In this document: piece by piece, positions 60,087 through 64,000 of the stretch
Layout of the letters: each line of letters opens with the position of its first letter
How positions within the stretch are numbered: position 1 is the stretch's first letter
Assembly (NCBI RefSeq): GCF_029201565.1
Contig: NZ_CP104002.1
Span: forward strand, 3,675,001-3,739,000
Source: Devosia sp. SD17-2
GTDB lineage: Bacteria; Pseudomonadota; Alphaproteobacteria; Rhizobiales; Devosiaceae
DNA length: 64,000 nt
Direction of reading: 5' to 3'
Notes under the pieces: model-generated
Told to the model about the DNA's origin: nothing
Seen by the model: the letters and a program-made list of their open reading frames with translations, nothing else
Databases searched by the model: none
Translations under genes and position numbers: made by a program

Positions 60087-60131
60087 TGGTGCTGCCGGAC
60101 AGGATTGAACTGTCGGCCTCTCCCTTACCAA
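60087..60131 (-). other. 3' fragment of tRNA-Thr(GGT): integration (att) site
   Basis: The minus strand reads as the 3' part of a tRNA: anticodon loop TTGGTAA (anticodon GGT), 3' anticodon strand GGGAG, variable loop AGGCC, T-arm GACAG-TTCAATC-CTGTC, acceptor strand CGGCAGC and ACCA. Upstream of the anticodon loop the match stops: the bases that should form the 5' strand of the anticodon stem are unrelated. A cut exactly in the anticodon loop is the hallmark of tyrosine-recombinase integration into a tRNA gene. Orientation puts the integrated element to the right of this fragment. Confidence 0.82.
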
Positions 60132-60558: not shown

Positions 60559-60750
60559 GGCTTGTGGTCGGGCCTATTTCGATAGGTCAGGACAGCAGCA
60601 AGTTGATCAGCAAGCGTACCTTGGTTGCGCGGCATGGCCCCTCTTTAACCTGGCGAATGGCGCCACCTGCACCTGACTGTCTCTTGGGGTCCGCGATTTA
60701 TTTCGGTCGAGGAGAAGCGTGAGCGAAAATCTGCGGAACGAGACAACTAG

Positions 60751-61597
60751 GTCCTGTTGACAAACTGGATTCCCAAATCGGGTTTGCCGTGATTCAAGAC
60801 TGCTTTTTAGGAGGCGGTTTTGGCGCGTGGGGATTTGTCGGACGCAGAGTGGCGGCTCATTGGGGAGCTCTTGCCGGCTGAGCGAGGGCGCAAGTCCCGA
60901 CCAGCGCAAGATAACCGTCGATATCTGAACGGCATGCTCCATGTTCTGCGAGTTGGCTGCCCCTGGCGCGACATGCATGAGCGCTATGGCAAGTGGAACT
61001 CAGTCTATGTGCGCTTCCGTCGCTGGGCCGAGCAAGGGGTGTGGGATGCCTTGCTTGAGACCCTGGTCGAACTCGGGCTCACCGATGACTGGCAGCACAT
61101 GATCGACAGCACCACGGTGCGCGGCCACTCTCAGGCAGCGGGCGCTAAAGGGGGACTTATAAGGAGGCTTTTGGTCGATCACGCGGCGGCTTTACGTGCA
61201 AAATCCACGCCCGCACAGACGGTCAAGGACGCCCTCTTGGCTTTGTCCTCACAGGCGGAGAAACATCCGACTATGCAGCCGTTCCTGCCTTGATGGCCAT
61301 GCCGGTTGGCAAGCCGCGATTGCTCCTGGCCGACAAGGGCTATGATGGTGACGCCGTGCGCCAGGATCTACTCCTGAGCGGCATCGTTCCGGTGATCCCA
61401 CCAAAAACCAACCGCAAGAACCCGCCACCATGCGACTTCAAGGCCTACAAAGACCGCAACCGCATCGAGCGCATGTTCAACAGGCTCAAGCAGTTCAGGC
61501 GCATCGCCACACGCTTCGACAAAACAGCAACGTCCTTCGCGGCCTTCCTCGCCCTAGCCGCCGCAAGGATATGGATGCCACACTTTGTCAACAGAGC
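60751..61597 (+). mobile_element. IS5-family insertion sequence, copy 2
   Basis: Inverted ends match: left GTCCTGTTGACAAACTG, right (reverse complement) GCTCTGTTGACAAAGTG. CTAG stands at both borders (60747-60750 and 61598-61601). Just inside the left end, TGGATTCCCAAATC is shared with the element at 42622-43473, so the two are relatives but not copies of one sequence. It lies inside the proposed island. Confidence 0.88.
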
Positions 61598-61601
61598 CTA
61601 G
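60820..61601 (+). CDS. IS5-family transposase, made by a -1 frameshift
   Basis: The first frame gives GDLSDAEWRLIGELLPAERG, CPWRDMHERYGKWNSVYVRF and the catalytic Asp in QHMIDSTTVRGHSQAAG. The second gives AFGRSRGGFTCKIHARTDGQ, the next Asp in LLLADKGYDGDAV and Glu in YKDRNRIERMFNRLKQFRRI. The change of frame is -1, near the AAAGGGGGA run at 61147-61155. The reading conserves protein similarity right through. It is a full DDE transposase if the shift occurs. The TAG stop is supplied by the flanking CTAG. Confidence 0.85.
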
Positions 61602-61659: not shown

Positions 61660-64000
61660 GTGGGGGCGGTTCGGCTGTTTATGCATCTGTCGGCGTTTAT
61701 CTTCCTTTTGTCTGGAAGCGCAGTCAATGCACAAGTTCTGGCTCCGCTCCAACTCCTTAGCGAGATTGATGCTGAAGGATTTTTTGTCCCGGGAAGTGAC
61801 ACGGAAAACATTCCTGCCTCTAACCTTGCCAGCCTAGTGGATGACCTAGGTTTTGCTAATGGATTTGCGCCTTCTCTGATTGGGTTTGCTATCAATCGCG
61901 AGGCTACCAACTCACTCAATGATTTCTGTTCGGCCTTAGATGAAAACTGGAATTCCCTCCTCCGGCGACACGTCTACGATGCCGTGCTCAACGAGGCAGT
62001 CAAGCTGGGTGTAATCCCCAGAACTGAGGTATTGGGGTACACTCGTGGCGCCCAAACCGAGTTGGATGCGATAGCTGCCGGCCACGCGGTTTTGAAACAG
62101 TACGCTGATCAGGCTCGAACAATCATGGATACCCATGAGAGAGATGAAGCGCTCATCGGACAGATAGGCGAATTTTGCTATCGCCCTTCAGACATATTCA
62201 CTTACCAATCTTGGCCAGGCGTAAACGATCTTGAGTGTGATGATCACGACGTCTACTCAGATGAGTTCGCGCGTATAGCACCGTTCGTTCCGAGCAGCTT
62301 ATTCGACTTCCTTCTGACGCAGGAAGTCGATCAGTTCGAACTCGAATGCGCACAGATCGGGCTAGATCTGGCTTACAAGGAGTTTGCGTCACTGAGTGTT
62401 AAGCGCTCCAGAATTTATCGAGGGGATCTTCGCGGCGCAGTTGGTTCTCGTCTCGAGATCAGCGGGTCCGTCGTATACAATGGTATCGACGCATCATCCT
62501 CGGCTTTCTCCGAGGCTCGACTGGTAAACAGCGACTTTCTACATACGATCGACTTCTCGGAAGCCACCATCTCAGGAAGCATCACCCTCCGCAACCTCGA
62601 CGCTGAGGCAGAGAACGATGCCCGTTCAGTCCACATGCATGGCGCCTCCGTAGCGGGAAGTTTGACGATCGATAGTTCCAAGTTTGTGGGAGAGGTTTAT
62701 CTCGGGGTCACCCGACTTGGTGCCCTTCGAATTGAAGATGTCGATGTTGTAGGACTCTTGAACTTGTGGGGCGCTGCGGTGGAGGGCTACACATTCATCG
62801 GTCAGTCAGGGCACAGCAAGTTTACAGGTGGCTTACATGCCTTCTATTTCTCAAGCGAAGACCTGCAGATCAGCAATGTAGAAACTACGAATATAACGCT
62901 CACATCTTCCAGCATAAGAGGTACCTCATGGTTCGAGAACATCATGTCATCTGGGTATATCTCGCTCAGAAATGCTCGACTTTTTAACATCGAGGTGTCC
63001 GATACGGCGGCTTCGAGCCTTTGGCTAAAAGACGCCGCAGTGGAAGGCGCTGTCGTGCTCAACGACGCTTCGTTTAAAGTACTTCATGCTGGAGGGATGA
63101 CCGCAAGAAGCTTCAATGTGAACAGCTCAAATGAAAGGCCGCAGTTGCAGCCACTGGTCGATTGCGGGATCACGCGGTCATCTGACAGCTATGGCCAGTA
63201 TGCGTGCTTAGATCGCGCAGATCTTTCCAGCGTGATCATCGAGGGTAATGCGTCGATAGGCGGATTCATACGTAACCAGGTCAACTTGAGTTCGAGCATA
63301 ATAGGTGGGCAACTCCAGATCGCTGGGCCGACAACCAACTTTGCCGATGCCGGTTGCGTAATCGCCAAAGATCTCCAAACTGACACGCTTGTAATAAATC
63401 TCGATAGCTCCTCCACAGGCACTCGCGTTAGGGGTCCGGTCTACGTCGATCTTCATGGCGCGGAGTTTAGAGTGTTAGGCAATCCGACGGGGAGTGAGGT
63501 CGGGGGACACAGAGTGGGAGGCGTCCTCGCGAAATTCCTCGCACCACTTGACGCGCGTTGCGACGAAAATGGCTTTGTTTCCGGTGAAGCGTCCGACGCC
63601 AGATATCAGCCACTTGTCTATGATGCCCTAGCCAGTGGATATGAGCGCAGTGGAGAATTGGATCTCGCCCGGTCTATCAAGGTCGAGAAGAACCGCGCTT
63701 ATGCCTCGGCTCTGGCCTGGGGCGACGATTGGTCGTCTGCGTTTCTGCCCGCTGTCACGAAAGGCTTCTACTATGTCGCAGACATCGTTAGCGGCTACGG
63801 CTACGAGAACCTCAAGGCGCTTGTTTTTCTAATCATATTGACGGCTGTGGGCGCCCTGTTGGGTTGGATCGGCGAAGCCCAGCTGACCCGGTGGCGAGAC
63901 TATGTGTTACGAAAGCTGAGGCTATCCCGGCTAGTAAATAAACCTAGCAGGGGGCGCAGTTCCGGTGGAGAAACGATACGCGGCCGAAGGGCGCCTGGCT
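61660..64000 (+). CDS. Large exported beta-helix-like protein with C-terminal membrane segment (runs off the window)
   Basis: One unbroken frame runs from GTG 61660 (GGGAG ribosome site eight bases before; ATG 61681 is also possible) to the window end, 780 codons without a stop. A signal peptide (FMHLSAFIFLLSGSAVNA, then QV) opens it. A helical domain follows to about residue 230, including a pair of acidic helices and several Cys. About 350 residues then have the short-period pattern of a parallel beta-helix/pentapeptide-like repeat (DFSEATISGSITLRNLDAEA, ASVAGSLTIDSSKFVGEVYL). Near the end, YQPLVYDALASGYERSGELD and a span at about 718-740 (LKALVFLIILTAVGALLG) precede a basic tail. Base composition is less GC-rich than the core genes. 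I know no named family for the whole. Confidence 0.85.
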   Translation, partial: MGAVRLFMHLSAFIFLLSGSAVNAQVLAPLQLLSEIDAEGFFVPGSDTENIPASNLASLVDDLGFANGFAPSLIGFAINREATNSLNDFCSALDENWNSLLRRHVYDAVLNEAVKLGVIPRTEVLGYTRGAQTELDAIAAGHAVLKQYADQARTIMDTHERDEALIGQIGEFCYRPSDIFTYQSWPGVNDLECDDHDVYSDEFARIAPFVPSSLFDFLLTQEVDQFELECAQIGLDLAYKEFASLSVKRSRIYRGDLRGAVGSRLEISGSVVYNGIDASSSAFSEARLVNSDFLHTIDFSEATISGSITLRNLDAEAENDARSVHMHGASVAGSLTIDSSKFVGEVYLGVTRLGALRIEDVDVVGLLNLWGAAVEGYTFIGQSGHSKFTGGLHAFYFSSEDLQISNVETTNITLTSSSIRGTSWFENIMSSGYISLRNARLFNIEVSDTAASSLWLKDAAVEGAVVLNDASFKVLHAGGMTARSFNVNSSNERPQLQPLVDCGITRSSDSYGQYACLDRADLSSVIIEGNASIGGFIRNQVNLSSSIIGGQLQIAGPTTNFADAGCVIAKDLQTDTLVINLDSSSTGTRVRGPVYVDLHGAEFRVLGNPTGSEVGGHRVGGVLAKFLAPLDARCDENGFVSGEASDARYQPLVYDALASGYERSGELDLARSIKVEKNRAYASALAWGDDWSSAFLPAVTKGFYYVADIVSGYGYENLKALVFLIILTAVGALLGWIGEAQLTRWRDYVLRKLRLSRLVNKPSRGRSSGGETIRGRRAPG

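Follow-up and report, generated by a model that had tools for sequence, protein, structure and literature searches.

A predicted exported beta-helix-like membrane protein encoded at one end of a tRNA-Thr-integrated island in Devosia sp. SD17-2

The gene and the layout of its product

The right-hand end of a 64,000-nucleotide stretch of the Devosia sp. SD17-2 genome (positions 3675001-3739000 of a single contig of 4,231,113 bases; hereafter the window) carries a forward-strand gene that starts at 61660 and remains open, without a stop codon, through the window end at 64000, a span that holds its first 780 codons. The coding sequence stops at 64173 (L002:4174), 173 bases past the edge, and encodes an 837-residue protein, here called P0001. 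The gene is intact: the genomic frame around it is open for 847 residues, with zero internal stops and zero frameshifts, and the possibility raised in an initial annotation of this DNA, that a frameshift just past the edge would reveal a dead gene, is rejected by this rightward extension. The open frame of at least 780 residues described in that annotation is thus real and continues to 837; the product is large, although not the giant protein it was called. The start codon is GTG and, judged by eye, a GGGAG motif lies 7 bases upstream. The parts of the protein, with export and topology judged from hydropathy, charge and inspection of the N-terminus by eye, are as follows.

61660..61731, + strand: signal-peptide-like segment (residues 1-24), with a hydropathy peak at residues 4-22 and putative cleavage after VNA, placed by eye
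61732..62391, + strand: acidic N-terminal domain (residues 25-244), modelled as helices to about residue 172
62392..63519, + strand: putative degenerate pentapeptide-type beta-helix (residues about 245-620), from Pfam, model and periodicity
63577..63816, + strand: conserved helical element ahead of the first span, including YQPLVYDALASGYERSG and SGYGY, common to five actinobacterial relatives
63817..63873, + strand: first late membrane span (residues 720-738), hydropathy 2.44
63874..64000, + strand: basic inter-span loop, beginning at residue 739; its remainder and the second span lie beyond the window edge

The N-terminal domain is strongly acidic (residues 26-245 contain 12 Lys and Arg against 37 Asp and Glu) and contains cysteines at positions 90, 173, 193 and 230, while the loop is basic (15 Lys and Arg against 7 Asp and Glu in residues 740-818). 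A late membrane span had been proposed and is present, but there are two, the second being a hydropathy peak at residues 819-837 that coincides with the end of the protein.

The tentative assignment of the central body as a beta-helix draws on several lines of evidence. Among the in-window 780 residues, PF13576 (Pentapeptide_3) matched residues 268-303 with an E-value of 7.1e-4 and 20.2 bits, below the curated cut-off of 27 bits. The hydropathy of residues 245-620 has a period of 5.1 residues that was equalled in 8 of 1000 shuffles, with no signal at periods of 5.0, 20 or 21; because the maximum of a free scan of periods was equalled in 25 of 200 shuffles, periodicity alone is weak support. 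The structure prediction that had been suggested as a check went part of the way: the AlphaFold2 model of P0001 has strands at about residues 203-606 and ten-residue blocks with pLDDT values of 65-81 over most of residues 261-380, and confidence in the N-terminal domain is below 50. A relative, P0005, gives a good beta-helix model in contrast to the weak one for P0001. Taken with hydropathy and the profile results below, it is largely right to describe P0001 as a beta-helix-like membrane protein that is exported and has a tail of pentapeptide type, export being a prediction. Identity with an autotransporter or tailspike was considered and rejected, since the resemblance in structure is a general one to right-handed beta-helices and amounts to a shared fold only.

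Family placement and two predicted orientations

Direct searches returned little. Searched among the roughly 8,000 candidates that shared the most words with the query, the whole of P0001 found only itself, as did a protein search with residues 640-837, and the two-row alignment A3, searched among a candidate set of the same size, added only P0005 (E 0.58). Scans of genome contigs gave no confirmed relative, a scan of PDB sequences gave nothing above the cut-off, and the NCBIfam and PHROG scans gave weak matches only, none above cut-off. A tblastn search of plasmids (E up to 10) was more informative, matching six records, all from Streptomyces or Nonomuraea, with best E-values of 7e-5 and 2e-4; two of the matches are annotated as 'oxidoreductase' and one as 'hypothetical protein', two have nothing listed and one record is unannotated. 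Five of these plasmid relatives, aligned with P0001 over the C-terminal module, share 22 invariant columns with it (alignment A1), and P0001 carries the conserved C-terminal module of the membrane-anchored beta-helix family as delimited in this analysis. The six-row profile found matches in the order (27 of 397 genomes) and in the phylum (12 of 398); the source genome is counted in both, and its score is built in, since P0001 contributes to the profiles. The open reading frames (ORFs) at 41 profile hits were read; two (G073 and G275) are non-members and several are fragments. Additional searches supplied further members; hits in G781, G227, G250 and G291 and one in G062 are outside the set read. 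P0005 itself matched 49 plasmid records, six of which were opened. In most of the members read, the beta-helix is followed by a helical element (often PQPYEQLA) and a span, and a loop containing a conserved D...P stretch then connects to a second span. By profile comparison, P0001 is a very divergent member of this widespread PF13576-type family, and we regard its anatomy and family membership as highly probable. The initial annotation's 'no named family' is accurate for direct comparison, Pfam, PADLOC, PDB, NCBIfam and PHROG all returning nothing above their cut-offs, but profiles do place the protein in a family.

Most members compared lack a signal peptide. These proteins, found in Streptomyces, on rhizobial plasmids and in many alphaproteobacterial genomes, often as 'oxidoreductase' or 'hypothetical protein', resemble P0001 in having a beta-helix followed by the helical element, span, loop and second span, and share the loop motif (F/Y)(S/T).D...P. 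They differ in being more positive before the first span and often having a basic end, whereas P0001 is predicted to be exported and has an additional N-terminal domain of about 220 residues. Among 58 family sequences compared, 49 are without a signal peptide and nine are of the exported type: P0001, P0005 (from JGI), proteins from Mesorhizobium onobrychidis pOM4 and Sinorhizobium meliloti M162 pSymA, and those from G096, G098, G075, G442 and G295. The comparison omits G073, G275, G820, G106 and G076 (non-members or too short), a duplicate (G823b) and G075_L122, which a contig end truncates at the C-terminus; sequences were labelled as exported by eye, on their N-termini (for G075b on that of the sister contig L122), and nine is the number among the rows read rather than a census.

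The exported proteins share with P0001 a signal-like N-terminus, a beta-helix-like body, two late spans and a loop with a net charge of 0 or more. Their identity to it in the C-terminal module is 15-26% (five of eight aligned), and no counterpart of its N-terminal domain was seen in them by eye. Of the five scanned with PF13576, four pass the cut-off (P0005, 87.4 bits; Mesorhizobium, 53.1; S. meliloti, 30.1; G096, 28.8) and G098 fails at 17.1. The two groups have opposite charge patterns. The charge before the first span has a median of +4 in the signal-less 49 and ranges from -1 to +3 in the exported nine (p 6.8e-5), and the net charge of the loop is 0 to +7 in the exported proteins against a median of -2 (p 2.9e-5); because the rows are related, these p-values describe rather than test the difference. 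Loops are 43-85 residues long in the exported group and have a median length of 102 in the signal-less group, where 35 of 49 have at least two cysteines, and C-terminal tails also vary (often RRD or KSR in signal-less members, such as SGLTQ in exported ones).

With no signal peptide and the opposite charge pattern, the rod of the signal-less members should be cytoplasmic. P0001 has the signal-like N-terminus and the charges that would place the rod outside, as judged by hydropathy and charge, and so is probably inverted relative to most of its relatives, with the rod outside the inner membrane. This predicted inversion is the new point, and the matches listed from a search of the open-licence literature include no paper on a pentapeptide membrane family of inverted topology. 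That 49 of the 58 compared members lack a signal peptide could instead mean that the rod of P0001 is also cytoplasmic, its N-terminal hydrophobic stretch being an uncleaved anchor or the result of a misassigned start. We consider this very improbable, given that the basic loop and acidic N-terminal domain of P0001 fit a periplasmic orientation and that the other eight exported rows also have loops with a net charge of 0 or more. If the charge patterns reflect real topology, the same membrane module has been used both ways up, with the same kind of domain inside in most proteins and outside in a few, and the family would provide a clean test bed for the evolution of membrane topology. A free tree requires two changes of the exported label; constraining the nine exported proteins to one clade raises the log-likelihood by 10.48 units (p-AU 0.877), and a single origin of the exported type is compatible with these data, though not proven.

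The genomic island and its cargo

The gene is cargo of a genomic island of 27 kb that is integrated at tRNA-Thr, and occupies one end of it. The features of the island end within the window, ahead of P0001, are these.

60087..60131, - strand: left attachment repeat, an exact 45-bp copy of the tRNA-Thr(GGT) 3' end, with its partner copy at L003:7108-7152
60747..61601, no strand: IS5-family insertion sequence with 21-bp terminal inverted repeats (60747-60767 and 61581-61601)
60820..61601, + strand: IS5-family transposase in two overlapping frames (60820-61293 and 61290-61601; DUF4096 and DDE_Tnp_1_2)

The partner repeat is inside the intact tRNA-Thr gene (L003:7108-7182), 27,020 bp from the left copy, and a tyrosine recombinase (L003:5641-6921) adjoins that gene. 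Direct repeats of the tRNA 3' end, an integrase beside the tRNA and absence from a relative together identify this as a tRNA-integrated island. Guanine-plus-cytosine (GC) content is 0.563 in the island and 0.528 in the P0001 gene, compared with 0.624 in the window ahead of the island, and the IS5-family element ends 58 bases upstream of the start of the P0001 gene. The relative is a genome classed as the same species (G849; 100% complete, 3% contamination) in which P0001 has no match but the adjacent phosphotransferase gene is present at 99% identity. Synteny ends near the tRNA fragment (G849:C49:788 against about 60143 in the window) with different DNA beyond, and the G849 contig start carries an IS5-like end; the site thus has a different occupant and is not a clean empty site. 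The presence of other DNA beside the same tRNA fragment in G849 makes this tRNA-Thr look like an integration hotspot.

A search of 101 genomes with P0001 matched two, the source genome and another from its genus, G044. The latter holds a C-terminal remnant only (L123:7210-7323), which has 65% identity to P0001 across 40 residues (E 1.2e-9 in a 15-kb stretch) and is apparently a decayed copy of a close relative. In 397 genomes of the order the source genome was the sole match.

The initial annotation's 'main cargo near the island end' was right about the island and the position, but P0001 is one cargo among several. The others include a serine recombinase, two RepB-type proteins, a second phage-integrase-type protein and type I restriction-modification genes (L186, L003:1275-3848), comprising a restriction subunit with ResIII and HSDR_N and an N6_Mtase methylase fused to a Methylase_S specificity domain. 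Near these is a defence candidate, a protein (L003:4594-5628) that matches the PADLOC family PDC-S11 with an E-value of 1.8e-126. Two further island proteins, of 618 residues (L002:13999-15855) and 412 residues (L002:15917-17155), have no Pfam match at E 1e-4.

It is because of this island that a defence role for P0001 is possible. As cargo of a defence island, low in GC and missing from the same-species genome, the protein might serve in the periplasm as a shield or sensor against phage DNA entry or bacteriocins, in keeping with the envelope-defence role first suggested for it. However, the link between P0001 and the restriction-modification and PDC-S11 genes is association only. PADLOC-DB 2.0.0 gave 0 families at E up to 1 for the in-window 780 residues, searches with P0001 or P0005 found no significant phage or viral-contig relative at their sensitivity, and the exported relatives at L120 and L161 sit amid ordinary-looking chromosomal genes, as judged from ORF translations. 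The defence reading is, on balance, unlikely.

A proposed periplasmic scaffold or sensor, and the neighbours of exported relatives

The explanation we favour overall, and hold at about even odds, is that P0001 is island cargo encoding a periplasmic solenoid anchored in the inner membrane that serves as a scaffold or sensor. The signal peptide would send the chain across the inner membrane, and the acidic N-terminal domain and the beta-helix rod would fold in the periplasm; the helical element would then lead into the first span, leaving the basic loop in the cytoplasm, with the second span ending the protein. The rod may work as a rigid periplasmic scaffold or a ligand-binding sensor, organising or reporting to membrane partners. 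This mechanism is put forward somewhat more tentatively than the overall explanation. The analysis establishes the intact gene, the island, the family relation and the opposite charge patterns; export itself, the two orientations and the scaffold or sensor function are inferred. Several observations weigh against the overall explanation. Nothing links P0001 to a ligand, partner or phenotype, its AlphaFold2 model is poor (mean pLDDT 44.9), and Foldseek found no match at E 0.001 with the models of P0001 or P0005. Export was judged from sequence by eye, the charge ranges of the exported and signal-less groups overlap, and so, slightly, do their scores for N-terminal hydrophobicity, the lowest exported score being 2.05 and the highest of the others 2.10. 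Furthermore, in the free tree P0001, on a long branch, and the G096 protein fall outside the clade that the remaining seven exported proteins form.

Known proteins of related build offer partial parallels. According to one report, YjbI (PerA) of Caulobacter crescentus is, like P0001 by prediction, a secreted pentapeptide-type protein of an alphaproteobacterium; its short quadrilateral beta-helix, flanked by conserved cysteine pairs, is placed at the outer membrane surface and is said to control envelope stress by silencing envelope-stress pathways (PMC12864828). P0001 might by the same token regulate outer-membrane composition, but YjbI has 183 residues and an outer membrane location, against 837 residues, two late spans and an accessory gene for P0001. 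Because of these differences in size and anchoring the parallel is an analogy only, and such a role is distinctly improbable. HglK-type membrane proteins, as described in PMC8145042, also fuse a pentapeptide solenoid to spans, but have four N-terminal spans and a C-terminal solenoid. The Knotted Solenoid fold of Brevundimonas also came into consideration, since the unknotted proteins closest to it are of the pentapeptide type and have a helical C-terminal domain (PMC13123833). Pentapeptide repeats are also mentioned beside caspase or TRADD-N conflict proteins in PMC7159879 and PMC8195603, in passages that give no description of the P0001 family.

Partners beyond the window edge had been suggested as a possibility, but among the scanned neighbours of P0001 there is no evident one. 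Seven exported loci have flanks on both sides (P0001, L082, L120, L124, L125, L160 and L161); Pfam was run on the neighbours of P0001, L082, L124 and L125, and ORF translations were used to assess those of L120, L160 and L161. The proposed search for homologues and their neighbours found a divergent PF13576-type family, with protease-fusion genes upstream at only two of the seven exported loci, both on rhizobial plasmids.

L124:2629-5643 and L125:1406-3322: protease-fusion proteins (trypsin with Exo_endo_phos, or caspase) with a shared hydrolase-like region

In M. onobrychidis pOM4 the directly upstream gene encodes Trypsin_2, Exo_endo_phos and a C-terminal region, and in S. meliloti M162 pSymA the protein encoded upstream, with two small genes between, combines a GDSL/SGNH-like region with a caspase domain. 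Over 341 columns, the pOM4 protein's C-terminal region is 33% identical to the N-terminal region of the M162 protein (E 7.8e-50). We take this shared region to be SGNH-like from the GDSL match of the M162 protein, which is below the Pfam cut-off. P0001 could on this evidence be the orphan of a conflict or signalling system that works with cytosolic hydrolase-protease fusion proteins. The arrangement is confined to two of the seven loci, however, and neither fusion protein was matched in the genome that encodes P0001, in searches without a positive control; we judge this reading to be quite unlikely. A broader account, in which the two-span module split into a common form with a cytoplasmic rod and a single exported clade, whose rod became an envelope-side sensor of caspase or trypsin conflict systems in some lineages and of which the island gene is a mobile member, likewise has a low probability. 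The scaffold or sensor reading is preferred to both, and the comparison brings out a set of predicted exported solenoids, of which one is encoded on an island that also bears defence genes and two lie close to the protease-fusion genes of rhizobial plasmids.

Two other neighbours of exported beta-helix genes were recorded. An exported-looking protein of 297 residues with no Pfam match (L082:9880-10773) is encoded by a gene that overlaps the start of the exported beta-helix gene by 4 bases, and the first 90 residues of the ORF at L160:8416-8931, beside another such gene, resemble the start of a bactofilin.
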